Shown here: positions 373-14,777 of the stretch, in pieces
How the letters are laid out: every line of letters begins with the position of its first letter
How positions within the stretch are numbered: position 1 is the stretch's first letter
Assembly: GCA_017557665.1 (NCBI GenBank)
Contig: JAFYYI010000020.1
Location: forward strand, 1 to 14,895
DNA: 14,895 bases
From: Muribaculaceae bacterium
Lineage (GTDB): Bacteria; Bacteroidota; Bacteroidia; Bacteroidales; Muribaculaceae
Reading direction: 5' to 3'
Made by a program: the position numbers and the translations under genes
Notes under the pieces: generated by a model
What the model was told of the DNA's origin: nothing
The model's database searches: none
The model's input: only the letters and a program-made list of their open reading frames with translations

Positions 373-466
373 ATAAAATCGAGAAAAAGTTTAGAAAATA
401 ACATTCTTTAAGATTTCAATAGTCGCCCTTTATATAAATAATGAGAAAGCCGGTGACGGGGCGGGG

Positions 467-676
467 CGAGATGGCATCTCGCAATACAGGACGACACAGA
501 CGACAGGGGGGGCAACGGGCAGCAGAGGGCGGCAGGGCGGGCGGAGCATTACGAGATGGTATCTCGCAATACAAGAACGGCACGGACGACAGAGGGGGCA
601 AGGGGCAGCAGAGGGCGGCAGGGCGGGCGGAGCATTACGAGATAGTATCTCGCAATACAAGAACGACACGGACGGC
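467..676. repeat. Tandem 85-86-bp intergenic repeat with hairpin core and G-rich tail
   Basis: Two full units and one partial unit begin at 467, 552 and 638. Each opens with the dyad CGAGAT-nnn-ATCTCG (loops GGC, GGT, AGT), followed by a conserved CAATACA(A/G)GA block. Units 1 and 2 then share a G-rich tail with five G-tracts. The array lies between the coiled-coil gene's terminator and the rRNA promoter. ORFs through it only translate the repeat (a recurring LYCEI.SR on the minus strand) and are not genes. I do not recognise the family. A copy of the core is at 5196. Confidence 0.85.
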
Positions 677-741
677 ACAAACGGAGGAGGAATCAACGGA
701 CAAAGGACAGCGGGGATGACCGCACTAACAACTAGAAAAAA

Positions 742-753
742 AGGGACCACCCT
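742..753 (-). terminator. Weak secondary terminator-like hairpin
   Basis: On the minus strand a short stem AGGG-TGGT-CCCT is followed directly by a run of T. The stem has only 4 bp, so this is at best a backup to the stronger terminator at 812-847. The flanking 736-810 contains degenerate repeats of an ACCCTG..GA.GAG-type motif and no gene. Confidence 0.3.
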
Positions 754-811
754 GCTGATGAGAAAAACGGCAACCCTGACGACGAGAGAAAAGGCGGGCG
801 GGATGATAACG

Positions 812-847
812 AAAAAAGGGGGCCGCCTTGATGGCGCCCCCCCCTTT
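812..847 (-). terminator. Rho-independent terminator of the coiled-coil gene
   Basis: A GC-rich inverted repeat lies just past the stop codon at 862: GGGGGCCGCC on one arm and GGCGCCCCCC on the other with a short loop. On the minus strand it is preceded by A and followed by TTTTTTC, the layout of an intrinsic terminator. It separates the coiled-coil gene from the repeat array and the rRNA promoter. Confidence 0.8.
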
Positions 848-861
848 GGGTTTATCCTCGA

Positions 862-2262
862 TTAGAAGAGGGAGAGCTGACGGGGATCCTCACCGGGATG
901 GGGAGGCATGGAGCCGTCGTCGTCCCAGTCGATGTCGTCAATCGCGCGCAGGGCGGGATCATCGGGAATCGCGTCTGCAGCGGGCTGAGCTGCGGCAGGG
1001 CGCTTGTTGAGTTCCTCGATCTGACGCTCGAGCATCGCGATGCGACGGTTCTTCTCGTCGATGGCATCGTTCATGGCCTGTGCCTCGTGCTGCTTTTTCT
1101 GCAGGGTGGCCTGAGTGCGCTTGAGCTCAGCCTTGGCATCATCGCGCTCGGCGGTGATCTTGGCGAAGTTGGCGGCCTTCTCGTTGCCGTCAACGCTGAG
1201 CGAGTTATACTTGCGCTTGAAGTCTTCGGCGACAGCGCTCACCGACGCCAGTTGCTGCTTGAGGCCGTCAATCAGGTTGCCGGTCTCGATGCTGCGGCGA
1301 TTCTGCACCTCGGCGTTCTGCTTAGCCGTCTGCTCGAGCTGGTCGATGTGCTTGCGCAGGTCGTCGTTCTCGCCCTGGAGGACGATGTGCTGCTTGCGCA
1401 ACTGGTCATACTCCGAAGCGCGGTGCTGGAGGTCGATAATCTGCTGACGAAGCGACGAAATCTCGGAGTTCTTCTTGTCCTTGAAGTCCTCGACCTCCTC
1501 GATGGTCTTCTGCAACTCATCAATGCTCTTGAGCTCCTCGGTTGCAGCATTGAGCTGGCCCTCGAGGTCCTCGACATTGGAACGGAGGCGCTCAATCAAC
1601 TCGTCACGCTGCTCCACCTGGACCTTGAGCTGATCGATCGTGGGTCCGTCATCGGCGGGCAACGGCATGTTGTCGCGGCGCTCTATCTCGGCATCTTTCT
1701 CAGCAAGCTGCTTGGTGAGGTCCTCAATGGTGGCGGCCATTTCCTCGACCTTGGCATTCAGGTCGCCCATATTCTCGCCACGCACCTCCATTGCCTTGAT
1801 ACGGCTCTCGAGGCCTTTCTTCTCGATCACCATCTTCTCCTGCTCGGTCTCAAGCTCAGCCACCTTGGCTGAGAGCTCGTTGGCGCGCGTCTGGGCCTGC
1901 ACCTTACCGGCTTCGAGAACTTTAATTTTCTCTTTGTACTCATCAACGACCTTCTGGGCGTCACCGGCCACTGCCGACAGTTCCTCACGCTCCTTCTTCC
2001 AGGCCTCCTTCATCATGTCAATCACAGCCTGGGTGTGCTCGTTCATCAGCCTTGCTGCCTTGTCGGCGAACTCGGCATCGATGGCGTACTCCTCATGCTT
2101 GTCGGGCTCAGCCAGCACGACGTCATCAGCCGGATGGTCGTGGTTGGGCACATTCTTGTCCTTACTGAAAGGATTGACAAAGCTGGTGGGCTGTCCAAAA
2201 ACATCATACTCTTCATTCTCGGAGCCACCGAAGGCGTTCTTGATTGATTTAAAAAATGACAT
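862..2262 (-). CDS. Coiled-coil protein with a C-terminal clamp-binding-like motif
   Basis: A 466-aa cytoplasmic protein; no signal peptide or membrane segment. The start chosen is the ATG before SFFKSIKNAFGGS; an in-frame ATG 18 codons upstream adds only a basic, low-complexity leader. After an acidic N-terminal segment of about 65 residues, the protein is nearly continuous coiled coil from about residue 70 to 430, rich in E, K, Q and regularly spaced leucines. There is a Pro/Gly/Asp break near the middle (PLPADDGPT). The end is an Ala/Pro linker, an acidic patch (DDIDWDDDG) and the final residues RQLSLF. QL(S/D)LF is the known bacterial beta-clamp binding pentapeptide, so a replication- or chromosome-associated scaffold is a plausible inference. 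No Walker motifs are present, so it is not an SMC ATPase. I do not recognise the family. It follows topA but has its own leader and terminator. Confidence 0.85.
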   Translation of the reverse strand: MSFFKSIKNAFGGSENEEYDVFGQPTSFVNPFSKDKNVPNHDHPADDVVLAEPDKHEEYAIDAEFADKAARLMNEHTQAVIDMMKEAWKKEREELSAVAGDAQKVVDEYKEKIKVLEAGKVQAQTRANELSAKVAELETEQEKMVIEKKGLESRIKAMEVRGENMGDLNAKVEEMAATIEDLTKQLAEKDAEIERRDNMPLPADDGPTIDQLKVQVEQRDELIERLRSNVEDLEGQLNAATEELKSIDELQKTIEEVEDFKDKKNSEISSLRQQIIDLQHRASEYDQLRKQHIVLQGENDDLRKHIDQLEQTAKQNAEVQNRRSIETGNLIDGLKQQLASVSAVAEDFKRKYNSLSVDGNEKAANFAKITAERDDAKAELKRTQATLQKKQHEAQAMNDAIDEKNRRIAMLERQIEELNKRPAAAQPAADAIPDDPALRAIDDIDWDDDGSMPPHPGEDPRQLSLF

Positions 2263-2406
2263 AGTCTTCTTGTTTTTTATAGTTTTGGTTTGTTCTATTT
2301 GATTTCTATCACACAATGCCGCTCATGAGCCAGGGTAAATCTTAAAAACAACTTTAAGTTTTAATATCTTACTTCTTGTTTTTCAATAATCTATCTACTC
2401 GAAGAG

Positions 2407-2451
2407 CGACCGGAAAGGAAGGCTCGGGGAGTCGTTTTTCCTCTCCAGTCG
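2407..2451 (-). other. Wobble-compensated 14-bp hairpin in the coiled-coil gene's leader
   Basis: The arms are 2407-2420 and 2438-2451 with a 17-nt loop. Read as minus-strand RNA, CGACUGGAGAGGAA pairs along all 14 positions with UUCCUUUCCGGUCG, including two G-U wobbles. On the plus strand the same two positions would be A-C mismatches, so the structure favours the minus-strand transcript. No U-tract follows, so it is not a standard terminator. It lies about 145-190 nt before the start codon. Function unknown. Confidence 0.5.
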
Positions 2452-2545
2452 GTAAAATTACGATGAATTTTTCTAATACGCGGCACAAATAAAGAATTAT
2501 TTTCGCTATTTGGACTGAATATCTTTTTACAAGTTCAAGAACAGT

Positions 2546-2590
2546 AAAACAAAACAGGCTGTGTTATAACATTTTGTCAAACACAGCCTG
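2546..2590 (-). terminator. Rho-independent terminator of topA
   Basis: A perfect 11-bp stem, CAGGCTGTGTT / AACACAGCCTG, has arms at 2580-2590 and 2555-2565 and a 14-nt loop. On the minus strand it is followed by TTTTGTTTTA. It begins about 20 nt past the topA stop codon. Confidence 0.85.
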
Positions 2591-2609
2591 AAGTATTACT
2601 ATAGGGTTA

Positions 2610-4988
2610 TTAATCCTTTTTTGCGCTTGACTTGGCGGTTGAACGTCCCTTAACACCTCGCTTGCGGGCTGTGCCTTTGGAGATGTTCGACTCATCGGCA
2701 ACGATCTCCCGGCACTCCTCCAGCGTGAGGCTTTCGGCATCCTTGCCTTTGGGAATCTTGACATTCTGTTTCTTGTAAACGATGTAGGGACCGTAGCGTC
2801 CGTTCATCACCTTCAAGTCGGGTTCCTCGTCAAAGGTCTTGAGCACCTTCTTGGCCTCAGCCTCGCGTTGAGCCTTGATCAGGTCAATCGCCTCGTCGAG
2901 GGTGATGCTTGTGGGTGAGAACTCCTTGGGGATGGAAGTGTACTTGCCGTTGTGCTTCACATAGGGGCCATAGTGTCCGACACCGATGGTCACCAGTTCA
3001 CCCTCGAAAGTGCCCAGGTCGCGCGGCAGCTCAAAGAGCTTCACCGCCTCCTCCAGCGTGAGGGTCTCAATGCTCTGGCCGCGCTGCAGCGAGGCAAACC
3101 TCGGTTTGCTCGAGTCATCGGCGCTGCCCATCTGCACGAGAGGGCCATAGCGGCCAATCTTCACCATGACGGGCAGTCCTGTCTTGGGATCGTTACCCAA
3201 CAGGCGCTCACCCACCTTGTGTTCAAGCCTAAGCGCTGAAACCTTGCTGATGTTGGGATGGAAGTCCTCGTAGAAATCGGCGATTTCCTTGTTCCACACG
3301 ACATTGCCCTGAGCGACCTCATCGAACTCGTTCTCCACCTTGGCGGTGAAATTGTAGTCCATGATCGAGGGGAAATACTTCACCAAGAAATCATTGACCA
3401 CCATGCCGACATCGGTGGGGATGAGTTTTCCCTTCTCGACACCAAAGAGCTCACTCTTCTTGCCGGTCGTGATCTTGCCACCCTTGAGGGTAATGATTTC
3501 ATAGTCGCGCTTGTGACCCTTGTCTTCGCCCTTCTCGACATACTGACGTTCCTGAATGGTCGAGATGATGGGTGCATAGGTCGAAGGACGGCCGATGCCG
3601 AGTTCCTCCAGACGGCGCACGAGCGATGCCTCGGTGTAGCGGTTGGGCTGCTGGGTGTAGCGCTGGATGGCATTCACGGCAAGGGCGTTCAGCGCCTCAC
3701 CGGCGTTGAGAGACGGCAAGGTGTGAAGCTCAGAGAACGCCTGAGTCTTGGCGTCGATATTCACGCTGTCGTCGGTGCTCTCGAAATACACCTTGAGGAA
3801 ACCGTCAAACTTCACTACCTCACCCTCGGCTACAAAGAGTTCCTTACGGCCCGACACGGTAATGTCGGCCGTGGTCTTCTCGAGCTCGGCGTCTGCCATC
3901 TGGGAGGCAATGGTGCGTTTCCAGATGAGGTCATAGAGCTTCTTCTCCTGCGGAGTGCCCGTGATGGTGTGGTTGCTGATATAGGTGGGACGGATGGCCT
4001 CATGGGCTTCTTGAGCACCCTTGCTGGTGGTGCGGTAGCGGCGCACCTTGAGGTAACGCTCACCGATGTTTTCCTTGATTTCCTTGCTGATGGTGCCCAG
4101 AGCCAGGTTGCTGAGGTTGACCGAGTCGGTACGCATGTAGGTGATAAGACCTTCCTCGTACAGACGTTGTGCCAGCCTCATCGTCTGCTTGACAGAGAGA
4201 CCCAACTTGCGGGCCGCCTCCTGCTGCAGGGTGCTGGTGGTGAAGGGAGGTGCAGGAGAGCGCTTGACAGGCTTCACAGTGACGTCGGCCACCGTGAACG
4301 TTGCCTGCTTGCAGTCCTCGAGGAAGTTCACTGCAGCGTCATGGTCAGCCAAATGGCGGTTGAGCTCGGCCTGGAACTCGCCACCATCGGCAGCAGCGAA
4401 TTGAGCGGCGACACGGTAATAGGGCTCGCTGACAAAGGCCTTGATTTCCTTTTCACGCTCGGCAATCAGACGCACGGCCACGCTCTGGACTCGTCCAGCA
4501 GACAGACCCGGCTTGATTTTGCGCCACAGTACCGGCGAGAGCTCGAAGCCCACGATACGGTCCAGCACACGTCGTGCTTGCTGGGCATCGACCAGATTCA
4601 AATCGATGCTGCGCGGATGCTCAATGGCCTCAAGAATGGCAGGCTCAGTAATCTCGTGGAAAACGATGCGACGCGTGTTGTCGGCCGAGAGGCCCAACAC
4701 TTCGAACAAATGCCATGCGATGGCCTCTCCCTCGCGGTCTTCATCACTTGCGAGCCAGACGACATCGGCCTTGGCAGCCTCATCTTTCAGTTTCTTGACT
4801 TGTTCTTCCTTGTCCTCGGGTATTTCATAAAGCGGCTTGAAGCCGTCCTCCACGTCGATGCTAAAGTTCTTCTTGTGCAAGTCACGGATGTGTCCGAAAC
4901 TTGACATCACTTTGTAATCACCGCCCAGGAACTTCTGGATGGTCTTTGCCTTGGCGGGAGACTCGACGATAACTAAGTTTTTTGCCAT
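2610..4988 (-). CDS. topA: DNA topoisomerase I (type IA)
   Basis: A 792-aa cytoplasmic enzyme that relaxes negatively supercoiled DNA by single-strand cleavage and strand passage. The N-terminal TOPRIM domain (about 3-120) has the catalytic Glu in IVESPAKAKT (E9) and the acidic metal motif SDEDREGEA (residues 81-89). The core carries LSAGRVQSVAVRLI (162-175), and the catalytic tyrosine is Y284 in LITYMRTDS. The C-terminus (about 590-770) lacks the tetracysteine zinc fingers of E. coli TopA. It has instead three glycine-aromatic repeats (GRYGPLVQ, GHYGPYVK, GRYGPYIV) of the topoisomerase C-terminal repeat type, as expected in Bacteroidetes, and ends in a Lys/Arg/Ser-rich tail. Length and start are normal for the family. 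It is a single-gene unit with its own -7 box and terminator. Confidence 0.98.
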   Translation of the reverse strand: MAKNLVIVESPAKAKTIQKFLGGDYKVMSSFGHIRDLHKKNFSIDVEDGFKPLYEIPEDKEEQVKKLKDEAAKADVVWLASDEDREGEAIAWHLFEVLGLSADNTRRIVFHEITEPAILEAIEHPRSIDLNLVDAQQARRVLDRIVGFELSPVLWRKIKPGLSAGRVQSVAVRLIAEREKEIKAFVSEPYYRVAAQFAAADGGEFQAELNRHLADHDAAVNFLEDCKQATFTVADVTVKPVKRSPAPPFTTSTLQQEAARKLGLSVKQTMRLAQRLYEEGLITYMRTDSVNLSNLALGTISKEIKENIGERYLKVRRYRTTSKGAQEAHEAIRPTYISNHTITGTPQEKKLYDLIWKRTIASQMADAELEKTTADITVSGRKELFVAEGEVVKFDGFLKVYFESTDDSVNIDAKTQAFSELHTLPSLNAGEALNALAVNAIQRYTQQPNRYTEASLVRRLEELGIGRPSTYAPIISTIQERQYVEKGEDKGHKRDYEIITLKGGKITTGKKSELFGVEKGKLIPTDVGMVVNDFLVKYFPSIMDYNFTAKVENEFDEVAQGNVVWNKEIADFYEDFHPNISKVSALRLEHKVGERLLGNDPKTGLPVMVKIGRYGPLVQMGSADDSSKPRFASLQRGQSIETLTLEEAVKLFELPRDLGTFEGELVTIGVGHYGPYVKHNGKYTSIPKEFSPTSITLDEAIDLIKAQREAEAKKVLKTFDEEPDLKVMNGRYGPYIVYKKQNVKIPKGKDAESLTLEECREIVADESNISKGTARKRGVKGRSTAKSSAKKD

Positions 4989-5018
4989 ATAATTGAATCC
5001 TTTTTAGAAAATCGGGTG

Positions 5019-5026
5019 CAAAGGTA
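5019..5026 (-). promoter_or_regulatory. topA promoter -7 element
   Basis: The minus strand reads TACCTTTG, matching the Bacteroidetes TAnnTTTG consensus, 31 nt before the topA start codon. The predicted transcript start near 5013 gives a leader of about 25 nt. No TTG is seen at the expected -33 distance, so the promoter is supported by one box only. Confidence 0.55.
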
Positions 5027-5084
5027 CGCTAATAAATCGAGATAAGAATGCCATCGAGCAAGATTTTTTCTCTTTACACATCTT

Positions 5085-5102
5085 TTAATAATATATTATT
5101 AA
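5085..5102. repeat. 18-bp perfect AT palindrome upstream of topA
   Basis: TTAATAATATATTATTAA is perfectly self-complementary and entirely A/T. It lies about 60-75 bp upstream of the topA -7 box. It may be an operator, a cruciform-prone site or chance in an A/T-rich stretch. Confidence 0.4.
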
Positions 5103-5195
5103 TGTGATTTTAAAACTACCGGTTCCCGTAGTGGGACGGAGAAGACGGAGAAGACGGAAAGAACGGAGGGACGACGGAGGGACGACGGAGCGGTG

Positions 5196-5232
5196 CGAGA
5201 TGGTATCTCGCAATACAAGAACGGCACGGACG
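5196..5232. repeat. Dispersed copy of the hairpin repeat core
   Basis: These 37 bases are identical to 552-588 in the array upstream of rRNA, including the CGAGAT-GGT-ATCTCG dyad and the following CAATACAAGAACGG block. The preceding CGGAGC is shared as well. The G-rich tail that follows is related in composition but diverged. Confidence 0.85.
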
Positions 5233-5331
5233 GCGGAGGGCGGCCGGGCGGCGGACAGGGCACGGACGGCGGAGGGCGGCCGGGAGGCAGACGGGGCACG
5301 GGCGGCAGAAGGCGGACGGACGAGCAGAGGG
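5224..5331. repeat. 36-bp GC-rich tandem repeat, about three copies
   Basis: A 25-bp block beginning GCACGGACGGCGGAGGGCGG occurs at 5224 and again identically at 5260. A degenerate third copy (GCACGGGCGGCAGAAGGCGG) begins at 5296, giving a 36-bp period. A further GCACGGACGGGCAGGG starts at 5340, out of phase. The array continues directly from the hairpin repeat core. Confidence 0.7.
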
Positions 5332-5371
5332 CGAACGGGGCACGGACGGGCAGGGTTACTGGGAGGGTGTC

Positions 5372-5418
5372 AAAAAAAGAAGTGCATCCTTGTGGCATCA
5401 CTGCCACAGGGACGCACT
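5372..5418 (-). terminator. Rho-independent terminator of the B12-regulated operon
   Basis: A 16-bp stem (arms 5403-5418 and 5381-5396) has a 6-nt loop, one wobble and one mismatch. On the minus strand it is followed by TTCTTTTTTTG. It lies about 40 nt past the DUF4465-type gene's stop codon and ends the two-gene transcript. Confidence 0.85.
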
Positions 5419-5458
5419 ATCACACATCAGGTTACTATATACTACTATTCTTCTTTTC

Positions 5459-6715
5459 TCACTTGATCACCTTCACGGCGCTGGTGGTGCCGTCGGTGTA
5501 GGTGGTGACAACGATGGTCAGACCCTCGGCCTGCTGCATCTCCTGACCAGCCATGTTGAAGTAGCGAACGCCAGCCACGGTCTTGCCACCCATCATCTCG
5601 TCGATGCCGGTGGGAGTTTGCTTCTTGGTAACGGTTACCTCAACAGCCTCGCTGCTCATGATTACGCCATTGTCATAGGTAGCAATGGCAACGATGGTCA
5701 CCTTGTAGTCCTCTGACTCGCGAGCGAAGCTCTCGGGATTGGCAATCTCATGGTACTCACCTTCCTCATCGATGCGATAGAGAGCCACGGTAGCGTGGTC
5801 GGCAGCGGCGCCCTCAATGATACCACCAACAACCACGTCATCGGAGTTGGTAACGATGGTCACCTTGGGAGCAACGGGGGTATAAGCGGGATCGTCCTCA
5901 CCCTTAACCTGGAACTTATCCATGCAGAAGTAAGCGGCCGTGTTCATGCCATAATCACCTGTATCGGTAGAGTTCATGGTGAAGTAAACCGACTCCACCT
6001 CACCCAGGCTGGAGAGGTCAAAGAAGGTCCAATCATTCAGAGCGTGAAGCTCACCATTGGTGAAATCCACGAGGTTGATGCTTACGGTAGTCTCCGAGCC
6101 ATCGGCAGCAACGCCATGAGCAATCAGCTCAAAGTAGTCGCCCTCGGCAAAGGGAGCTCCAAAACCGTCACCATGCTCACAACCGTAGTAGGGCCAGGGG
6201 TGATTGCACACGTACACACCGACGGGCTCAAAGGTTGTCTGGCGATCCTTGCCCACAAACATCACCTGGTTACTGGGGCCTTCATATGCCCAGCTGCTGT
6301 AATAGCCCACGAGATAGGGCTGTGAGGGATCAGCAGTCACTGTGCCATCCTCGTTGATGACGCAGCCACCACCAGCCATGCAACCGCCAAAATAAGTCGT
6401 CCACGTGCCGCTACTGCCGGGCTGACCATAGTCGGTCTGGTCACCACCGATAGCGGGGCAGAAACCGTCCCAGTAATAGCCACCCCACGAGGCGCCTTCA
6501 CCGTCGATGAGGTGCGAGAGCATAAACTCACCGTTTTCATCGCCAAACTCAAGCCATGTGTAATTCACATCATCGTAGCAATTGGTCCAAATGCCATACT
6601 CGTTGTATTCCAGCGAAGTGGGATTCAACGGCTTGTTCAAGTCAAGCGTAATCACACCAGCCCATGCGGCCGAAGCCATCAGAGCGCTTACTGCTAAAGT
6701 AAAAATCTTCTTCAT
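5459..6715 (-). CDS. Secreted DUF4465-type protein with a Por-secretion-like C-terminal tail
   Basis: A 418-aa exported protein. The start chosen is the ATG of MKKIFTLAVSALMASAAWA, a clear signal peptide with cleavage expected after A19; an ATG four codons upstream is less likely. Residues 20-270 resemble DUF4465 proteins from memory of the family pattern: W.....G....Y, GDYFELIAHG, VDFTNG, W.FFDLSSLGEVESVYFTMNSTD, and YGMNTAAYFCMDKF near 255-268. A beta-rich linker (about 280-365) follows. The end (about 370-418: TGID.., VRYFNMAGQEM, a final strand, VKVIK) resembles type IX secretion sorting tails. It is the second gene of the riboswitch-controlled operon, 61 nt after the BtuG-like gene. DUF4465 proteins often sit in Bacteroidetes B12-uptake loci, so a role in cobamide capture is inferred. 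No lipobox cysteine is present. Confidence 0.85.
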   Translation of the reverse strand: MKKIFTLAVSALMASAAWAGVITLDLNKPLNPTSLEYNEYGIWTNCYDDVNYTWLEFGDENGEFMLSHLIDGEGASWGGYYWDGFCPAIGGDQTDYGQPGSSGTWTTYFGGCMAGGGCVINEDGTVTADPSQPYLVGYYSSWAYEGPSNQVMFVGKDRQTTFEPVGVYVCNHPWPYYGCEHGDGFGAPFAEGDYFELIAHGVAADGSETTVSINLVDFTNGELHALNDWTFFDLSSLGEVESVYFTMNSTDTGDYGMNTAAYFCMDKFQVKGEDDPAYTPVAPKVTIVTNSDDVVVGGIIEGAAADHATVALYRIDEEGEYHEIANPESFARESEDYKVTIVAIATYDNGVIMSSEAVEVTVTKKQTPTGIDEMMGGKTVAGVRYFNMAGQEMQQAEGLTIVVTTYTDGTTSAVKVIK

Positions 6716-6776
6716 ATTGTCAAACAAAGTATTAAAATGGTTAAACAGATGTTATGATAAATCTATATTTCTAAAC

Positions 6777-9344
6777 TTAAGTCTCATTTAATATCTTATT
6801 AATCAGCAATATGGCATCACTGATAGTGATTTCTCCGTCACCATTGAAATCGGCTGCTACCGGGTCATAGTCGGCGAGTACCGAGCCCAGCAAGATTGTA
6901 ATGAGCTTGGTCACGTCAGAGATAGTCACCTCACCGTCCATATTCACATCGCCGGGAATCGACACATGGGTCACCGTCACGGTGAATGAAGTGGTCGCCA
7001 ATTTGCCGTTGCTGTCGACAGTGACCGAAACTGTTGCACTGCCAGGTGCCACAGCCTCGAGATGAAGGTCTGTTCCGCTCACCCAAGCCTTGGCTACCGA
7101 GAGGTCGGCACTCCTTGCCTTCGTCACCGCCAGAGCCGCCATGTTGTCGTCATCGGCCACTGCAGTGAGCAGGTCGATGGTCTCGCCCTGCCCCCTTGGC
7201 AACTGCCTATCGCTGATGGTTACTGATGGAGCGCACACGTCAGGATAAACCGCCATGGCGGGGAACCAGTAAGCGTCCTGCAGGCGAATCTGGCGCTTGA
7301 GTTCCAGTGTGTTGGCGTCATAGAACAACACCCAGTTGTGATTGAAGTTCTGGTAAGACATGAGAGCCGCCTCGATGGTCTGGACAACCATGTCGCCCGT
7401 ATGGGGGTCAAAGCTGATGGCCGAAGAGTAGAGTCCTTGAAGTTCCTTGGTGCCGTCCCAGTTGATTTCCACGCCCTCGGGCAGAGAGATGAGCGCATCG
7501 GTAAACTCACGCGTCGTGAAATCATAGCAGCTGATGTAGTTCTGATACTCATTATAGCCATAGTACACGCGCTCGGCATGAGGATCCACACAGACCATGC
7601 AAGCGCGCCATGCGCCCCACGAGCTGATAGCACCGTGGGTCTCTCCGAGCTCATACACATCCTCAACCTCGAAGGTAACCGGATTGATGCGGGTAAAGTT
7701 GGCCTCATAGGGTCCGCCGCTCATATCGTAAATCTCTCGGCTGTTATTGGCCACATATAAATTGCCGCCCACCGTCACGAACACGGTGACGATATTGGGG
7801 AAAGGCAGCGTGGTCACAATGGCATCGGTGGCAGGATCAATCACGTGGAGTCCCCTACCCTGCTGTACAGCAAACACATACTGACCAAAGCGCACCATGT
7901 CGCCGCACTGATCGCGGTAGAGGCTGTTATAGTCCCCCTTGGCACTGGACAGCGTGCCGTCGATGGCTCCAGTGACACACATGCCCTGTACGTCAATCAC
8001 AAAGATGCCGCCGCTGGTGGAGACATAACCCTTACTCGGCGAGACAGCGCAATAAGCTCGTCCGTCATAGATGCTGTCGGGCGAATTGCCGAAGCGCAGG
8101 ATGCTGCCCTGCTGCTTGAGGGTCGACGCGTCAAGCACCGCCAGACGTGAGCCCAAAGTGCTGCCCGATGCCTCATTGGCATTGGCCTGCTTGCTCACAA
8201 GGAAGAGTTTGTTGCCGTACAATTGGCCGAACTGGGTGGTGACGCCCAACTTAGTCTCAGGATTCATGATGGAATACACATTGTACTCCATCTCATCATA
8301 GTCATAATTATAATAATTGAGAGAGCCCTGATTGGGTCCATAGCGGTCCTCATTGACAAAGATGATACCATTAGTGAACGTGAAATCGCCAGGTCCCGGG
8401 CCGGGCTCATCGGCTTCGGCATCAGGATGCAGGTCCTCGGCACCACACACCTCGGTCGATACCTCGCCCAGCCATCCGCAGTAGTCCAGCTGTCCGCTAT
8501 ACACCTTGATGAAGTCAATGTGGTCAAGAGTAACAGGATTGCCGTCCTCATCAATGGCCCAATCAATCATGAAACCAGGTTCCTGGTTATTGGGCAGGTT
8601 GTCGGCATAGCCCCCATCGAAGAAAGGCTGGAACCAGTTGTTGCCTTTACCGCCGCTCATGTCAATGGAGCTGTTGGGCAACTTCGTGCCCCTGAAAGTC
8701 AGCACCGTATCCTCACGCCACAAGGGCCAGTAGGGCTGGGTGTGGAACGTGTTCTGCCACACGTAGCCTTCGGGCGCCTGGGCATCATTACTCGTCCAAT
8801 GGACATACTCGATATCGGTGATGAAGCGCCAGCTGTCATGAGGCACAGGCGCCTTGTTCGCGTCAGGCTTGTAGTAAGTCACCTCAAAACCGCGCATGCA
8901 ACGGTCATAGTCGCTGCCTTTAATCTCGTACCAACGGTCGGCAGCACTGGGCACGCCATCACCGTCCATGTCAACACCCACCATGATAATGCCAGGTTCA
9001 CAGCTGCCACCTGCCTGATCGGGCACGGTGTTACTCTGCATGGCATTGCCGTAGATTTTCACGTCATAACCATGCTTGTTGATCACGGGATGATCAAAAC
9101 CAAAGATGATGTAGCCGCCATAGCTTCCCAAGCTGACGGAGCCATTCACGCCGCCACACAGTGAGTTCTCAAGCTGTGCATTGATGCTATCCTGTGTGTA
9201 ACCGGGCTTGTAGGACGGGAAAACATTCACGAACTGACCCGGAGCAGGCAGGTAGTCATACACATGTGCAATATAGGGCGAGTTGTCGGCGCTTGCCGTC
9301 AACGCAGCCGTCATAGCCATTGCGAGAAGTAACGATTTCTTCAT
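6777..9344 (-). CDS. Secreted BtuG-like (DUF5074-type) beta-propeller protein with C-terminal dockerin
   Basis: An 855-aa exported protein. The signal peptide is MKKSLLLAMAMTAALTASA, cleavable after A19, with no lipobox. Residues 20-305 form a Bacteroidetes surface-protein module (SLGSYGGYIIFGFDHPV, YGNAM, EPGIIMVGVDMDGDGVPSA, RWYEIKGSDY, EVTYYKP). A Pro/Gly linker (EPGPGPGD, 313-320) leads to a region of about 321-703 matching the DUF5074/BtuG propeller pattern: NEDRYGPNQGSLNYY, TQFGQLYGNKLFLVSKQ, GGIFVIDVQG, YVFAVQQGRGLHVIDPATD. An Ig/cadherin-like domain (about 704-793) and a type I dockerin (794-855) with two calcium loops (DVNMDGEVTISD and DFNGDGEITISD) follow. BtuG binds cobalamin beside the TonB receptor BtuB in Bacteroides. 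The riboswitch directly upstream supports B12 capture here. The dockerin and absence of a lipid anchor differ from classical BtuG. Confidence 0.88.
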   Translation of the reverse strand: MKKSLLLAMAMTAALTASADNSPYIAHVYDYLPAPGQFVNVFPSYKPGYTQDSINAQLENSLCGGVNGSVSLGSYGGYIIFGFDHPVINKHGYDVKIYGNAMQSNTVPDQAGGSCEPGIIMVGVDMDGDGVPSAADRWYEIKGSDYDRCMRGFEVTYYKPDANKAPVPHDSWRFITDIEYVHWTSNDAQAPEGYVWQNTFHTQPYWPLWREDTVLTFRGTKLPNSSIDMSGGKGNNWFQPFFDGGYADNLPNNQEPGFMIDWAIDEDGNPVTLDHIDFIKVYSGQLDYCGWLGEVSTEVCGAEDLHPDAEADEPGPGPGDFTFTNGIIFVNEDRYGPNQGSLNYYNYDYDEMEYNVYSIMNPETKLGVTTQFGQLYGNKLFLVSKQANANEASGSTLGSRLAVLDASTLKQQGSILRFGNSPDSIYDGRAYCAVSPSKGYVSTSGGIFVIDVQGMCVTGAIDGTLSSAKGDYNSLYRDQCGDMVRFGQYVFAVQQGRGLHVIDPATDAIVTTLPFPNIVTVFVTVGGNLYVANNSREIYDMSGGPYEANFTRINPVTFEVEDVYELGETHGAISSWGAWRACMVCVDPHAERVYYGYNEYQNYISCYDFTTREFTDALISLPEGVEINWDGTKELQGLYSSAISFDPHTGDMVVQTIEAALMSYQNFNHNWVLFYDANTLELKRQIRLQDAYWFPAMAVYPDVCAPSVTISDRQLPRGQGETIDLLTAVADDDNMAALAVTKARSADLSVAKAWVSGTDLHLEAVAPGSATVSVTVDSNGKLATTSFTVTVTHVSIPGDVNMDGEVTISDVTKLITILLGSVLADYDPVAADFNGDGEITISDAILLINKILNET

Positions 9345-9345
9345 G

Positions 9346-9377
9346 TCACATCGTGTTTATTAGTTTCACATCGTGTT
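9346..9377 (-). repeat. 12-bp direct repeat at the start codon of the BtuG-like gene
   Basis: TCACATCGTGTT (plus strand) occurs at 9346-9357 and 9366-9377, 20 bp apart. On the minus strand each copy reads AACACGATGTGA, so each contains ATG immediately followed by TGA. The second copy read ends one base before the true ATG. It lies in the riboswitch expression platform. Confidence 0.6.
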
Positions 9378-9499
9378 GTGAATCAAGCGACAAGACGAGC
9401 CGACCAGAGGTCGTTGAAGATTTCAGGAAAAGGCACAGATTGCTCTGCATCATCTCACTTCGCCAGGGTTCAAATGCCGCGTGAACCAACACTGATTGG

Positions 9500-9712
9500 C
9501 AGTGTGAAGGCAGGTCTTCTGACTCCTCCCCCGTCGCCGCGGCGCCTTCCCGGTGATGATGCAGACCCTAGAGTGTATGCAACCAGTGGCGTGCGTGCCG
9601 CGTGACGTTTGTCAGGGAGTTACAGCAGCGGGTACTGTCCAGGATTCTCACCTGATTCCCTTTTGATTCCTAGCCTCTCCCAAAGAGGCAGGAAACCTCA
9701 ACACGTTCAATT
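9500..9712 (-). promoter_or_regulatory. Adenosylcobalamin (B12) riboswitch
   Basis: On the minus strand, in order: GGGAATCAGGTGAGAATCC with GGACAGTACCCGCTGCTGTA (the conserved core), CCACTGG, CCGGGAAGGC, and the B12 box AGTCAGAAGACCTGCCT at 9508-9524. These are the diagnostic blocks of the cobalamin riboswitch in the right order and spacing. A short hairpin follows the B12 box (ACACTG-CCAAT-CAGTGT, about 9490-9506), where P13 is expected. About 145 nt separate it from the BtuG-like start codon. No hairpin with a U-tract is seen in that interval, so control is more likely at translation than at termination. B12 should repress the downstream two-gene operon. Confidence 0.96.
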
Positions 9713-9721
9713 TTCTCGTCG

Positions 9722-9752
9722 CAAAGGTAATAAGGATTTTCGTGGCAGCCAA
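9722..9752 (-). promoter_or_regulatory. Promoter of the B12-riboswitch operon
   Basis: TACCTTTG on the minus strand (9722-9729) with TTG (9750-9752) 20 nt upstream matches the Bacteroidetes promoter well. The predicted transcript start near 9715 coincides with the 5' edge of the riboswitch. The promoter overlaps the space just past the nrdG stop, so the B12 operon is transcribed separately from nrdDG. Confidence 0.75.
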
Positions 9753-9770
9753 GTGTTTTTATGATTTTAT

Positions 9771-10250
9771 TCACAGCCATAGAGTGACTTGGCCAGTTGT
9801 GATAGTGCGCTGGACGTCGATGAGGCGCTGATTGCGGCTACCACGGAACCGCAGACTGATGTCCCGTTCGGCTTGGATGAAGGGGCCGTCGACGAGGACG
9901 TCGAGCTCGCGCACGACGTCGAGAAGGGCGGGGTCTGCTGCTATCTCCTCCCAGGTGAAACCTGTGAAGCACCAGACGTTGTAGCCCAGCTCCTGCTTGA
10001 TGCGGTGGATGAGGGCACGCGTTTCACCGGGCTGCAGCAGGGGATCACCGCCGCTCAGGGTTACAGGGGCCTCGTTGTAGGCGATGACCTGCATCAGCTC
10101 GTCGAGGGTGCGCTCTTCCCCACCCTTGAAATCCCAAGAGTCGGGATTGTGACAACCGGGGCAACGATGATTGCAGCCCGCCAAGTAGATTGACGTGCGC
10201 AGGCCCGGACCATCGACGCTGGTGCCCTCGACTATGTGTAACACTCTCAT
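9771..10250 (-). CDS. nrdG: Anaerobic ribonucleoside-triphosphate reductase activating protein
   Basis: A 159-aa cytoplasmic radical-SAM enzyme that uses a 4Fe-4S cluster and S-adenosylmethionine to install the glycyl radical on NrdD. The start chosen is the ATG of MRVLHIVEGTSVDGPGLRTS; the in-frame ATG 13 codons upstream (MPWHRHG..) would read through the intergenic palindrome and is not conserved-looking. The cluster motif CNHRCPGC gives C26, C30 and C33 (CxxxCxxC). SGGDPLLQ supplies the glycine-rich SAM-contact region, and DVLVDGPF is the typical later motif. Length is normal. It follows nrdD by about 100 nt and has no visible promoter of its own, so it is probably co-transcribed. Confidence 0.97.
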   Translation of the reverse strand: MRVLHIVEGTSVDGPGLRTSIYLAGCNHRCPGCHNPDSWDFKGGEERTLDELMQVIAYNEAPVTLSGGDPLLQPGETRALIHRIKQELGYNVWCFTGFTWEEIAADPALLDVVRELDVLVDGPFIQAERDISLRFRGSRNQRLIDVQRTITTGQVTLWL

Positions 10251-10268
10251 TGGGTTAACTCTCTTGGG

Positions 10269-10343
10269 GCCGTGGCGATGCCACGGCATACGGAACGGGG
10301 GTTGCTTCTCGCGCGAGAAGCAGCCCCGTCTCTCGCGCGAGAG
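10269..10343 (-). other. Cluster of three palindromes between nrdD and nrdG
   Basis: Three stem-loops fill the 102-nt gap. 10269-10287 is an 8-bp stem GCCGTGGC-GAT-GCCACGGC. 10303-10322 is a perfect 20-bp palindrome, extended outward by G4/C4 arms to 10298-10327. 10330-10343 is a perfect 14-bp palindrome. The last two share the 12-mer TCTCGCGCGAGA, with centres 24 bp apart. None is followed by a U-tract on the minus strand. They may act as a stability or processing element that sets nrdD:nrdG expression, or as protein-binding sites. Confidence 0.7.
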
Positions 10344-10352
10344 GTCAGTATA

Positions 10353-12560
10353 TCACTTGTGGACGACACGGTCCTTGAGCTCGGCGAGCTTGCCGCTGTT
10401 CCAGCGGTCGGTGGTGCCGACGAGGTAGCCGGTGATGCGCTGCAGGCGGTCGATATTGTGGCTGTGGCACTCGGGGCACTCGTGGAGGTCGTCGGTGGCA
10501 TCTTCATAGCCACAGTCCATGCAGCGGTTGCGGTTGTGGTTAACCGAACAGTAACCCATGTTGTACTTATCCATCAGGTCCACAACGTTGGCAATGGCCT
10601 CGGGGTTGTGGGTAGCGTCGCCATCAATCTCGACATAGAAGATGTGGCCGGCACGCGTCAACTCGTGATAGGGAGCCTCAACCTCGGCCTTGTGCTTGGG
10701 AGAGCACTTGTAATAGACGGGCACGTGATTGCTGTTGGTGTAATAAATCTTGTCGGTCACACCGGGAATCTCGCCGAAGTCCTTGCGGTCGCGGCGTGTG
10801 AACTTGCCGGCCAAGCCCTCGGCAGGGGTTGCCAGGATGCTGTAGTTGTGACGATAACGCTCGCTGAACTCGTTGGCGCGGTCACGCATGTAGGTGACAA
10901 TCTTGATGCCCAGCTGCTGGGCCTCGTCGCTCTCGCCGTGATGCTTGCCCACAAGGGCAATCAGGCACTCGGCAAGACCGATGAAACCGATGGCCAGTGT
11001 ACCCTGATTGATGACACTCTCAATCTTGTCGTCGGGGGAGAGCTCACTGGCTCCGTTCCACAGCTGCGACATGAGCAGCGGGAACTGCTTGGCCATTGCA
11101 GTCTTCTGATACTGGAAACGCTCGTCGAGCTGGCGAGCAGTAATCTCCAGCATCCTGTCGAGCTTGGCAAAGAAGCGGTCGATGCGTTCCTGCTTGTCCT
11201 TGATACCCATGCACTCGATGGCAAGCTTGACGATGTTGATGGTCGAGAACGAGAGGTTGCCGCGACCGATTGACGTCTTCTCGCCGAAGCGGTTCTCAAA
11301 CACGCGAGTGCGACAGCCCATAGTGGCCACCTCGTGGATGTAGCGTTTGGGGTCGTCGGGACGCCACTGGTCATCAACGTTGTAGGTGGCATCCAGGTTG
11401 ACGAAGTTGGGGAAGAAACGGCGAGCAGTCACCTTGCAGGCAAGCTGGTACAGGTCGTAGTTGGGATCGCCAGGCTTGTAGCTCACGCCCGTCTTCTTTT
11501 TCCAGATTTGGATGGGGAAGATGGCGGTGGAGCCGTTGCCCACACCCTCGTAGGTCGAGTTCAACAGTTCGCGAATGATGCAACGTCCCTCGGCGCTGGT
11601 GTCGGTGCCATAGTTGATGGAGCTGAACACCACCTGATTGCCGCCACGCGAGTGGATGGTGTTCATGTTGTGGATAAACGCCTCCATCGCCTGGTGAACG
11701 CGGCGCACCGTCTTGTTGATGGCGTGTTGCAGGATGCGCTCGTCGCCCTGCAGGAAGTCCAGTTCGCGCTCGGTGTAATCGTCCAGCTTCACGTCATAGA
11801 GGCGGCTGTAGTCCTGGCCCATCAGAGCCTCAAGGTTTTTCACTTCCTCGATGAACGAGCGGCGCACGTAGGGTGCCAGATAAAAGTCAAAGGCGGGAAT
11901 GGCCTGTCCACCGTGCATCTCGTTCTGAGCCGTCTCCATGGTGATGCAGGCGATGACGCCAGCCGTCTCGATGCGCTTGGCCGGACGAGATTCGCCATGA
12001 CCAGCCATATAGCCCTGCTCGAGCACCTTGTCAAGCGGATGCTGCACACAGGTCAGGCTCTTGGTGGGATAATAATCCTTGTCGTGGATGTGCAGGTAAT
12101 TGCCACGCACCGCCTCACGGGACTCCTCACTGAGCAGGTAGTCATCGACAAAAGGCTTGGTAGTCTCGCTGGCGAACTTCATCATCATGCCGGCAGGGGT
12201 GTCGGCATTCATGTTGGCGTTTTCGCGCGTGATATCGTTATTCTTGGCATTGATGATTTCCAGGAACATGTCGCGCGTCTTGGCCTTACGGGCAACGCTG
12301 CGTGCATGACGGTAATTGATATAACAGCGGGCGACTTCCTTGCGCGGACTCTTCATCAGCTCCAGCTCCACCTGGTCCTGAATGTCCTCGACGCTCATCT
12401 GGCTGCGGCCACGCTGACCGATGCGGTCGGCAATGCGCTGTATCAGGCTCTCGTCTTCACCATCCTCGGTGGCAATCATCGCCTTGCGGATGGCAGCCTT
12501 TATTTTTTCCTCATTATAGCCGACGACGCGGCCATCACGTTTAAGTACGGTCTGAATCAT
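10353..12560 (-). CDS. nrdD: Anaerobic (class III) ribonucleoside-triphosphate reductase
   Basis: A 735-aa cytoplasmic glycyl-radical enzyme that reduces ribonucleoside triphosphates to dNTPs without oxygen. An N-terminal ATP-cone (about 1-90: VLKRDGRVVGYNEEKIKAAIRKA) gives allosteric control. The catalytic barrel includes VATMGCRTRVFENRFG, which probably holds an active-site cysteine. Near the C-terminus, CMDC..CPEC (C680, C683, C695, C698) forms the structural zinc site. The glycyl-radical motif RITGYLVG (G711 the likely radical site) is followed by TTDRWNSGKLAEL. Length and domain order are normal. The start is supported by the ATP-cone beginning at once and by an upstream promoter. nrdG, its activase, follows. 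The enzyme does not use B12, so the riboswitch downstream is not expected to control it. Confidence 0.98.
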   Translation of the reverse strand: MIQTVLKRDGRVVGYNEEKIKAAIRKAMIATEDGEDESLIQRIADRIGQRGRSQMSVEDIQDQVELELMKSPRKEVARCYINYRHARSVARKAKTRDMFLEIINAKNNDITRENANMNADTPAGMMMKFASETTKPFVDDYLLSEESREAVRGNYLHIHDKDYYPTKSLTCVQHPLDKVLEQGYMAGHGESRPAKRIETAGVIACITMETAQNEMHGGQAIPAFDFYLAPYVRRSFIEEVKNLEALMGQDYSRLYDVKLDDYTERELDFLQGDERILQHAINKTVRRVHQAMEAFIHNMNTIHSRGGNQVVFSSINYGTDTSAEGRCIIRELLNSTYEGVGNGSTAIFPIQIWKKKTGVSYKPGDPNYDLYQLACKVTARRFFPNFVNLDATYNVDDQWRPDDPKRYIHEVATMGCRTRVFENRFGEKTSIGRGNLSFSTINIVKLAIECMGIKDKQERIDRFFAKLDRMLEITARQLDERFQYQKTAMAKQFPLLMSQLWNGASELSPDDKIESVINQGTLAIGFIGLAECLIALVGKHHGESDEAQQLGIKIVTYMRDRANEFSERYRHNYSILATPAEGLAGKFTRRDRKDFGEIPGVTDKIYYTNSNHVPVYYKCSPKHKAEVEAPYHELTRAGHIFYVEIDGDATHNPEAIANVVDLMDKYNMGYCSVNHNRNRCMDCGYEDATDDLHECPECHSHNIDRLQRITGYLVGTTDRWNSGKLAELKDRVVHK

Positions 12561-12608
12561 ATCCTGAAGGTCAATAAAATTATCAAAAAACCATTGCTAT
12601 CGAAAGAA

Positions 12609-12627
12609 AAACCGGCTAAACCGGTTT
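12609..12627 (-). other. Hairpin at the 5' end of the nrdD transcript
   Basis: A 7-bp stem AAACCGG-TTTAG-CCGGTTT on the minus strand begins at about the predicted transcript start and is followed by TTCTTTC. It could stabilise the mRNA 5' end or act as a weak attenuator. Confidence 0.45.
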
Positions 12628-12634
12628 GCGTCTG

Positions 12635-12664
12635 CAAAGGTAATATCGCCCGTTGAAACAACAA
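12635..12664 (-). promoter_or_regulatory. nrdDG promoter
   Basis: TACCTTTG on the minus strand (12635-12642) with TTG (12662-12664) 19 nt upstream matches the Bacteroidetes consensus. Predicted start is near 12629, giving a leader of about 70 nt before the nrdD ATG. Confidence 0.7.
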
Positions 12665-12670
12665 ACGATT

Positions 12671-12688
12671 TTTGATAAAAATTTCAAA
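12671..12688. promoter_or_regulatory. Candidate CRP/FNR-like operator upstream of nrdD
   Basis: The dyad TTTGA-N8-TCAAA is centred about 50 bp upstream of the predicted nrdD transcript start, next to the -33 element. This is a usual place for activator binding. It resembles, but does not match, the FNR site TTGAT-N4-ATCAA. The A/T-rich setting makes chance occurrence possible. Confidence 0.3.
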
Positions 12689-12872
12689 AAATTTTCGTTT
12701 TGGAAAACTTTTTGGACTGAGTAAAAATTTAATCCGTTGAAATTCAGTTAATTGCAGAATTTTTTGGAAAACTTTTCCCGTAAACGGAATTGTAAAAAAT
12801 TATCTATTAGACGTTTAACGCCTCGCGATTAGCCAGTTCATCATCTTCGCTACAGAACCCATATAACAGAAT

Positions 12873-12908
12873 CAGGCAGGCAATCCACAACACGGGAAAG
12901 CCTGCCTG
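12873..12908 (-). terminator. Possible terminator hairpin after the dockerin protein gene
   Basis: A perfect 9-bp stem CAGGCAGGC / GCCTGCCTG has an 18-nt loop. It lies about 30 nt past the stop codon of the dockerin-containing protein but has no U-tract on the minus strand. A smaller 6-bp stem (TCATCC / GGATGA, 12921-12936) sits between. They may be 3'-end structures rather than a classical intrinsic terminator. Confidence 0.4.
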
Positions 12909-12936
12909 CAAGAATGGCGTTCATCCTGACGGATGA

Positions 12937-14532
12937 TTAATTATTATTGAGCACCTTGTTAATCAGGTCAATCACATCCGAGATATTGATCTCATTGTTA
13001 TTGTCCAGATCGGCATTGACCAAATTCACCTCAGTAAAATCGTCATTCAACACAGCATTGATGAGCTTAATGACGTCAGAGATATTCACCTCACTGTCAT
13101 TATTCACATCACCGGGAAGCGCAGCATCGGCCTGACAAGTGAAGGTGACCTTGGGAAGGAACTTGATCAACTCGGCATTGTCACCCGACCACTGTGAATG
13201 AGTCACCGACAGGCCAGCGTTGTAATCCGTCACCTCACCATAGAATTGAGTGGTGCCGTAATTGCCATTGGAGTCCATAACGCGAGCCTCAACAGCCAGG
13301 TTGCCGCCCATATATTTATAAGGTGTATCAAAGTAGAAGGTGATGACCTCAAGACCCTTGGCCAACGGCATGGAAGCAACGGGCGTCATATCGGCGACAG
13401 CCACCTTGGAGGTGAACTCGCTTTGGTCAGTCTCCTTGAGGGATATCTGCACGGTTCCGTCCTTGAGGACAGTGGGCTTGTTGGTATAGAACGAGAGCGC
13501 CACAATCTTGCTGCCAGCGATATCGGCAAGCATGTCGGCAGGATAAATCATCTGGCCATAGGTGCCCGCGTCGCTGAAGTACACACCGTTGAAGGGCAGC
13601 TTGGCATTAACGCTCGTGCCGTCACACACGGTGAAGTCGGTGCCATTCTCAAGCGCCGTGCCACTCAGGGGCACCTCAAGAACACCTGCCTGGCCGCAGT
13701 CGATGCTGAGCACGCCGTCGAATGTGCCAGCCTCCACAGGCTCAAAGGCCACAACAATCTCTTGTGTCGCTCCGGGCTCCAACAGACCACCTGCCGGCAT
13801 GCTGGCGCTGAAAGGCGCATCGGCCGACACTGTCGCGGTAAAGGCATTCAAGCCGTTGTTCTTCAGGTAAATCGTATACACATCACTCTCGCCCGAGCGT
13901 ATCGTGTTGAATGTCACGTGTCGAGGTGACGTCTTGGCCGAATAGGCCGGCGTCTCGCCATACTCAAAGGTCGTCTTGGGGATGAACTCGCGGTATTCAT
14001 TACCCTCATCGCCGGTGGTCATGGAGGTGTGGCCCTGTTGGAAGAGGCCATAGAAATAGGTGAAGTTATAAGCCTCGGACGATCCAGCGACCTGGACATA
14101 GAAGTCAATGACAAGATTACCACCGCCATAGATGTAGGGTGTGTCAAAGTCAATGTCTATCTCTTCCAGGCCCGTTCTCATCTCGGCAAGAGCGACAGTG
14201 GTCAATTCAGTGAAGAAAGACGGAGCACTGAAGACAGATTCTTCCACTTCACCCATCGACACCCTCAAGGCGCCGCCGTTCATTTTGCAGCCCTCATTGT
14301 TCACATAGAGCGTGATGGCCGAGATGGGTTGCCCCACCATCGCCGTAAGTTCACTGGCAGGATAAATCACTTGTCCCCGTGTCCCGGGCACGTTATAGTT
14401 TGCCGTTGGCAGTGGCACATAAGGCGACACCTGTGTCCCGTCAAATACGGTTAAATTGTTGGCGTGGCCGACAGCCGCAAAGCAGCACATCACAACCAGC
14501 ACGACAAACGCGGTTTTCAATCGATTGTACAT
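12937..14532 (-). CDS. Secreted protein with two homologous modules, Ig-like domain and C-terminal dockerin
   Basis: A 531-aa exported protein with an N-terminal signal peptide (LKTAFVVLVVMCCFAAVGHA, cleavage near A24). Two related modules flank a central domain. Module A (about 27-191) and module B (about 299-466) share TV.DGT.V at the start, RGQVIYPA versus YGQMIYPA, a mid-module Y(V/T)N, FDTPYIYGGGNL versus FDTPYKYMGGNL, and FIPKTTF versus FLPKVTF at the end. The central 197-294 has the pattern of ASPM/HYDIN or choice-of-anchor Ig-like domains (L.PGATQEIVVAFEP....TFDGVLSI..). The last 61 residues are a dockerin with two calcium loops (DVNNDSEVNISD, DLDNNNEINISD). The modules are not recognised. 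Adhesion or glycan binding is possible but not shown. It has its own promoter. Confidence 0.87.
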   Translation of the reverse strand: MYNRLKTAFVVLVVMCCFAAVGHANNLTVFDGTQVSPYVPLPTANYNVPGTRGQVIYPASELTAMVGQPISAITLYVNNEGCKMNGGALRVSMGEVEESVFSAPSFFTELTTVALAEMRTGLEEIDIDFDTPYIYGGGNLVIDFYVQVAGSSEAYNFTYFYGLFQQGHTSMTTGDEGNEYREFIPKTTFEYGETPAYSAKTSPRHVTFNTIRSGESDVYTIYLKNNGLNAFTATVSADAPFSASMPAGGLLEPGATQEIVVAFEPVEAGTFDGVLSIDCGQAGVLEVPLSGTALENGTDFTVCDGTSVNAKLPFNGVYFSDAGTYGQMIYPADMLADIAGSKIVALSFYTNKPTVLKDGTVQISLKETDQSEFTSKVAVADMTPVASMPLAKGLEVITFYFDTPYKYMGGNLAVEARVMDSNGNYGTTQFYGEVTDYNAGLSVTHSQWSGDNAELIKFLPKVTFTCQADAALPGDVNNDSEVNISDVIKLINAVLNDDFTEVNLVNADLDNNNEINISDVIDLINKVLNNN

Positions 14533-14584
14533 GATTCAATAGTAGTTAATGTTATAAAAAAAATAATGGTATCAAATGAGCTGC

Positions 14585-14615
14585 CAAAGGTATATCAAAA
14601 AAACCAAACCTGCAA
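14585..14615 (-). promoter_or_regulatory. Promoter of the two-module dockerin protein gene
   Basis: TACCTTTG on the minus strand (14585-14592) with TTG (14613-14615) 20 nt upstream. Predicted start is near 14578, a leader of about 45 nt. Confidence 0.7.
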
Positions 14616-14650
14616 AAATATACTCATTAATGATGAGAAGGCCACCCTAT

Positions 14651-14686
14651 TATAAAAAGTAGAGACGCAAAATTTTGCGTCTCTAC
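14651..14686 (-). terminator. 28-bp perfect palindrome acting as terminator of the right-edge gene
   Basis: 14659-14686 is perfectly self-complementary; its half-site is GTAGAGACGCAAAA. On the minus strand it is followed by TTTTTATAAT, so it can terminate transcription from the gene ending at 14778. Very similar GTAGAGACGC palindromes are dispersed in many Bacteroidetes and cyanobacterial genomes (from memory), so it may also be a mobile intergenic repeat recruited as a terminator. Confidence 0.75.
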
Positions 14687-14703
14687 AATTCGTCTGCAAT
14701 AGG

Positions 14704-14774
14704 CCTAAAGCCTAACAGTTATGGCCTGAATAGTCAATACCTAAAGCCTAACAGCTAAAGCCTAAAGCCTAATA
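14704..14774. repeat. Short CCTAAAGC-type repeats
   Basis: CCTAAAGCCTAACAG occurs at 14704-14718 and again at 14740-14754, followed by further CTAAAGC units up to 14774. The run sits between the right-edge gene's stop codon and the palindrome. It looks like degenerate slippage-type repeat, with no function visible. Confidence 0.6.
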
Positions 14775-14777
14775 AAA

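Follow-up and report, generated by a model that had tools for sequence, protein, structure and literature searches.

Capture of vitamin B12 in Bacteroides relies on lipid-anchored surface proteins and on vesicles (PMC8941943, PMC10404256, PMC12751083), as far as the accessible parts of the papers cited here describe it. In Bacteroides thetaiotaomicron, B12 operon 1 has the gene order btuK1-btuK2-btuH1-btuB1-btuGH-btuJ1 (PMC12751083, PMC10404256). BtuK1, BtuH1/2, and BtuJ1/2 of this organism bind B12, and BtuK2 is described as lacking cobalamin binding (PMC12751083). Binding is also demonstrated for members of the DUF4465/BtuJ family (PMC12751083, PMC13398666), of which more than 70% are lipoproteins and the remainder carry periplasmic signals (PMC13398666). 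Here we describe a two-gene unit within a 14,895-nucleotide stretch of a Muribaculaceae bacterium genome (contig JAFYYI010000020.1, positions 1 to 14,895; the window), where domains of these families stand behind a cobalamin riboswitch on chains that end in a dockerin or in a tail resembling the C-terminal domain (CTD) recognized by the type IX secretion system (T9SS). The unit is likely an accessory operon for cobamide capture, belonging to a B12 uptake system of the rumen-type Bacteroidales. Its component domains and riboswitch are all known already; the same binding domains are apparently kept while the mode of holding them is altered, so that binding and anchoring become separable roles.

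The unit lies on the minus strand and is closed: a promoter-like element is followed by the riboswitch, gene 1, gene 2, and a terminator, with nrdG (stop at 9771) on the upstream side and topA on the downstream side. The aptamer (9492-9715, minus strand, as are all features of the unit) matches RF00174 over its full length, 1-189, scoring 97.1 bits (gathering score 31.5; E 1.3e-23), in line with the complete cobalamin riboswitch proposed in the first-pass annotation, which was made from the sequence alone. Seven nucleotides before the riboswitch start is TACCTTTG (9722-9729), which we take to be a promoter -7 element from its likeness to the Bacteroidales consensus TAnnTTTG; this type lies outside the coverage of the sigma-70 promoter scan of the window. 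Just downstream of the aptamer, GATGATGCAGA (9444-9454) is complementary at every base to TCTGCATCATC (9565-9555), a loop of the aptamer. A kissing contact of the L5-L13 type is an expected feature of this riboswitch class, and all 38 leaders compared (those of the 37 relatives introduced below and that of the window) have a perfect loop complement of 8-12 nucleotides at the equivalent position. Because the conserved complement is the contact expected of the class, the riboswitch looks functional. In many leaders, a short hairpin downstream of the aptamer overlaps the complement. The unit closes with an intrinsic terminator, a hairpin and T tract (5372-5418) with a fold of -29.6 kcal/mol (z -6.0) that none of 200 shuffles equalled in stability; the same hairpin, 5418-5372, is absent from the list of a pattern-based terminator scan of the window.

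Gene 1 (6777-9344) encodes 855 residues comprising a signal peptide, a BtuH domain, a BtuK/BtuG-type propeller, an Ig-like domain, and a dockerin. The N-terminal module of about 290 residues noted in the first pass is present and is a second known B12-binding domain: residues 22-306 (8427-9281) are homologous, by sequence and structure comparison, to the C-terminal B12-binding domain of BtuH2, and this homology rules out an unknown module. The domain resembles BtuH2 (7biz) in fold and in most ligand residues, with five of the six polar ligand contacts (Q333, N399, H476, W511, W577) present and Y510 replaced by N when placed by hand on the sequence alignment. It differs in setting: in the lipoprotein BtuH2 the domain is preceded by PKD domains, whereas the window domain is N-terminal to a propeller.

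The propeller (residues 325-701; 7242-8372) matches PF16819 with an E of 2.3e-73. By structure, its best matches are BtuG2 (8bmx) and BtuK1 (9s6c), at about 20% identity, with BtuG and BtuK1 ahead of propellers outside the Btu group by at least 5 Z units. A profile of the propellers of gene 1 orthologues, searched against the PDB, finds BtuK1 as its sole match at E 0.01 or better and the BtuG family not at all at that threshold, and direct comparison of gene 1 with BtuG1 gives a weak 9-bit stretch. The earlier label of a BtuG-like propeller holds for the fold, but by sequence the domain reads as BtuK-like and not as BtuG proper. The Ig-like domain (residues about 708-792; 6969-7223) is plausible, with model strands at about 713-792 and matches to Big_2 (E 0.11) and He_PIG (E 0.16) that are both below the Pfam threshold. 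At the C-terminus, residues 797-852 (6789-6956) form a type I dockerin (PF00404, E 5.3e-11) with both calcium-loop repeats present. The plain, non-lipoprotein signal peptide proposed earlier agrees with a simple pattern search, which finds no lipobox in gene 1, setting it apart from BtuG proper, BtuG2, and BtuK1. The visible signal is of Sec type; none of the known signals for outer membrane export was found on the protein.

Gene 2 encodes 418 residues (5459-6715) from an ATG at 6715; the program-made list of open reading frames places the start at a TTG at 6727. The DUF4465 domain suggested in the first pass (residues 20-273; 5897-6658; profile E 2.1e-35) follows a signal peptide and agrees with the BtuJ/DUF4465 family in profile, fold, and contact motif. 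It shares the augmented jellyroll and the N-T-x-x-Y motif with BtuJ1/DUF4465 structures (9qpm, 9fct, 9hmu), N258, T259, and Y262 corresponding to N241, T242, and Y245 of BtuJ1 (PMC12751083). It differs from them in an additional Ig-like domain and a C-terminal tail (RYFNMAGQ...KVIK; 5459-5617), which appears T9SS-CTD-like by eye and has no NCBIfam match; TIGR04183, the T9SS sorting model, matches none of six gene 2 tails tested. Lack of a lipid anchor alone is not new for the DUF4465 family, since its remaining members carry periplasmic signals (PMC13398666). In other genomes of the relatives' family, DUF4465 domains are also seen within giant proteins of about 2,150-2,350 residues with a T9SS-like tail by eye (L118-L122, in G062, G077, G132, G076, and G123).

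Operon 1 of B. thetaiotaomicron is alike in placing H, K, and J accessory binders under a cobalamin riboswitch and in containing a BtuH-propeller fusion (BtuG1, renamed BtuGH; PMC12751083, PMC10404256). The window protein differs from BtuGH in that H precedes the propeller and the propeller is BtuK-like (PMC10404256). The chains of the window are not lipoprotein-like and end in a dockerin or tail, and in relatives btuB and btuG belong to another operon, unlike operon 1 and the Bacteroides BtuBG surface lipoprotein locus.

The relatives are 37 genomes of GTDB species, retrieved via gene 1 with six peptide patterns; because gene 1 itself retrieved them, they are close relatives only. All are uncultured or metagenome-assembled and are labelled Prevotellaceae, Muribaculaceae, Porphyromonadaceae, or Bacteroidales. 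Where a host is named, it is goat, sheep, water buffalo, or roe deer; many of the 37 are 'RUG' genomes from the rumen. A B12 riboswitch lies upstream of the accessory unit in all 37. Like the window, 24 loci have H and K fused, and the other 13 have them as two adjacent genes; among the latter, the dockerin match is found on 12 H proteins and all 13 K proteins, and the H tail of L037 is dockerin-like by eye. The fusion state changed at least twice on branches with SH-aLRT of at least 95, and three times on the best tree for both domains, obtained by a quick search without bootstrap. The DUF4465 gene (J) lies directly downstream in 36 loci, the 37th contig ending inside gene 1. Thirty of these 36 genes end in a tail, two in a dockerin, and four are uncallable (three at contig ends, and L020 with an altered reading frame). 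The flanks are nrdG upstream and topA downstream in 25 loci; the others are cut short or differently arranged.

No btuB is found within the 14.9-kb window, as the first pass had stressed, but this is probably a window-edge effect. The gene is present in 36 of the 37 relatives (88-100% identical to the query) and starts within about 85 nucleotides behind a cobalamin riboswitch in every one of the 36, with one to five such riboswitches in each of the 37 genomes. The order btuB-btuG-btuH-dockerin recurs in all nine fetched regions with a whole btuB (L073-L078, L080, L082, L087), with rpoC upstream in eight and none in the 5.6 kb fetched for L087. BtuB of L076 is closest to B. thetaiotaomicron BtuB1 (E 1e-133), and the gene after it is closest to BtuG1 (E 1.9e-37) and has a lipoprotein-like start by eye. 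By gene order and homology, the relatives carry a separate btuB-btuG riboswitch operon, in agreement with the earlier suggestion of a receptor encoded elsewhere. A reading of gene 1 as a BtuG that lost its BtuB is ruled out, since the btuB-linked BtuG is a separate gene. Twenty genomes have btuB on the contig of the gene 1 riboswitch and in the same orientation, at a distance of 10-22 kb in 19 of them and 52 kb in the other; in one more genome that contig includes the end of btuB, and the remaining 15 have the two on separate contigs. Wherever linkage is visible, btuB is upstream of the accessory unit. The window stops 5 kb upstream of its riboswitch, so at the relatives' spacing of 10-22 kb btuB would fall beyond it.

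Among ten further regions, taken from additional genomes of this family, two have accessory genes next to btuBGH: L125 has btuJ after it with no additional riboswitch in between, and L124 has a K gene that is preceded by a riboswitch of its own and ends in a tail, not a dockerin. The other eight have no H or K gene. Elsewhere (L085, L086), a pair of TonB receptor genes flanking CbiK, followed by cobamide synthesis genes, stands behind a further cobalamin riboswitch. As cbiD is also present in 32 of the 37 relatives, these bacteria probably make cobamides besides capturing them. In three of the 15 fetched regions (L081, L083, L084), a riboswitch is present and the btu and CbiK genes looked for are all absent.

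Dockerins of rumen Bacteroidetes are already in print (PMC6071333, PMC7260996), with a role called unclear and cohesins described as absent or too divergent to see (PMC7260996); one genome without cohesins and dockerins is called consistent with other Bacteroidetes (PMC5831590). In nine of nine genomes tested here, 135-153 dockerin matches were counted per genome (the best 150 of 210-322 candidates scored), an abundance that rules out the dockerin as a B12-specific feature. It is a general tag in this clade. Among 99 genomes of the family of G001, 61 have none, 30 have one to four, one has nine, and seven have at least 31 (among at most 58 matches listed per genome). The expansion is lineage-specific rather than family-wide, as most of these genomes are without dockerins and so few are rich in them. 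On the cohesin side, PF00963 is above its cut-off in 18 of the 37 relatives, and with a clade cohesin profile (A4), whose nine source sequences come from five of these genomes, every one of the 37 shows 3-18 cohesin-like domains. Dockerins exceed cohesin-like domains at least eightfold in the nine genomes with both counted. The likeness to cellulosomal proteins of Ruminococcus and Clostridium lies in the canonical C-terminal type I dockerin and in the cohesin-like domains of the relatives' genomes; the differences are a cargo of vitamin-binding families, relatives that are Gram-negative with T9SS, and the numerical excess of dockerins.

Some proteins combine these modules: one in L068 has four cohesins and a dockerin, and those of L071 and L072 have a cohesin, a dockerin, and a C-terminal tail (tails by eye; TIGR04183 E 0.026 for L071). 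A recurrent-looking gene pair, a large cohesin protein followed by a cohesin-dockerin protein of about 220 residues (L071; by coordinates also G001:C25:170588-172466), is possibly a scaffold and its adaptor. In the window, 12937-14532 (minus strand) encodes a 531-residue secreted protein with choice-of-anchor-D-like repeats and a dockerin, and in relatives a cluster of such proteins lies between the btuB operon and nrdD.

Two gene 2 orthologues differ at the C-terminus: the DUF4465 genes of L030 and L033 close with an extra beta domain and a dockerin instead of the tail, and past the new stop codon lies a decayed old tail whose DNA can be aligned with the tail of L034 (scores only, with no significance estimate). 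A dockerin protein encoded nearby on the L030 contig shares 60% identity with the L030 cassette and 83% with the dockerin of that cassette. The dockerin thus overwrote the tail, which would imply that both do equivalent jobs. L030 groups with the tail-keeping L031 and L034, and the dockerin-bearing L033 stands just outside; J-domain identities are 85.4% (L030-L033), 85.7% (L033-L034), and 83.3% (L030-L034). One swap with later exchange and two swaps are both possible. A count of proteins ending in both a dockerin and a tail was rejected as empty, because both are C-terminal by definition and mutually exclusive by construction. The decayed tail behind a new dockerin, in gene 2 of two relatives, can be read as a swap done by nature that bears on what dockerins do in rumen Bacteroidetes. 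In the accessible parts of the literature searched, neither B12 capture by dockerin-bearing proteins nor, for Bacteroidetes dockerins, a tail-to-dockerin replacement with a remnant was found. The T9SS translocon SprA is present in 36 of the 37 relatives, and together with the swap this suggests that dockerin proteins reach the same place as T9SS proteins, via cohesin binding or otherwise. A second, short SprA-like stretch of about 480 residues occurs in several relatives (e.g., G001:C18, G029:C4, G021:C3), some with an in-frame TGA; it may be a SprA fragment or a paralogue.

As an accessory capture operon, the unit would work as follows. At low B12, the riboswitch would be unbound and both secreted proteins made, placing three B12-binding-family domains on two chains: BtuH and the BtuK1-like propeller on one, BtuJ on the other. 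From their families, we infer that all three bind cobamides. The chains would cross the inner membrane via ordinary signal peptides, without lipid anchors, and be placed outside the cell by the dockerin of gene 1, presumably through a cohesin partner, or by the T9SS-like tail of gene 2, the two serving as interchangeable address labels, an interchange seen in relatives. Captured cobamide would then be handed, as in Bacteroides, to BtuG and the transporter BtuB of the separate riboswitch operon. A bolder extension, which we hold tentatively and regard as doubtful, takes the dockerin as a general outer-surface address standing in for the T9SS CTD in this clade: a small set of cohesin proteins secreted by the T9SS would hold its varied cargo, of which the B12 binders are one part, or even take it through the outer membrane, forming a cohesin-dockerin 'cobamidosome' in a Gram-negative.

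The first pass had favoured a released or non-lipid-anchored complex. A non-lipid-anchored unit under a B12 riboswitch is what is found, but release is not supported over surface attachment, which fits at least as well because of the dockerin/tail interchange and the cohesin-like domains in all 37 relatives. Were the proteins soluble cobamide scavengers, resembling protein siderophores, with the dockerin linking them to one another or to a released scaffold, the scarcity of lipid anchors would be expected: the lipobox pattern has no match in 84 of 88 H, K, H-K, and J proteins, and the other four, all J, have theirs within the hydrophobic core of a plain signal peptide. B. thetaiotaomicron, too, employs released vesicles with BtuJ (PMC12751083). 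Such release is nonetheless unlikely, as the dockerin is a genome-wide label that replaces the tail of gene 2 orthologues, suggesting a common fixed location, and, among the matches listed, G029 and G036 are the only genomes with a multi-cohesin scaffold.

The Sec-type signal of gene 1, with no known outer membrane export signal found beside it, would also suit dockerin proteins that stay inside the outer membrane, gene 1 then being a periplasmic cobamide store or chaperone. This is very unlikely, since in Bacteroides the place of action is the cell surface for BtuH and BtuG and vesicles for BtuJ (PMC8941943, PMC10404256, PMC12751083), and the interchange of tail and dockerin argues to the contrary. 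The binding function itself is least secure for the propeller, the most doubtful of the three domains and a point that weighs against a capture role for all of them, because BtuK2 of B. thetaiotaomicron is described without cobalamin binding (PMC12751083). A propeller with another ligand or a structural role, as BtuK2 may have, would leave BtuH and BtuJ as the only binders. We think this improbable: the BtuG and BtuK1 structures outrank other propellers by the margin given above, the B12 riboswitch precedes the unit in every relative, and two B12-family domains accompany the propeller.

Outside the unit, the window also contains GC-rich repeats, with an 86-nucleotide tandem pair at 488-659 (within 488-682). 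A 63-nucleotide unit is common to 534-596, 620-682, and 5178-5240, and the last copy adjoins an array of 18-nucleotide period (to 5330) just past the operon terminator. At 862-2316 (minus strand) is a gene for a 484-residue protein whose Pfam matches are of coiled-coil type and below cut-off.
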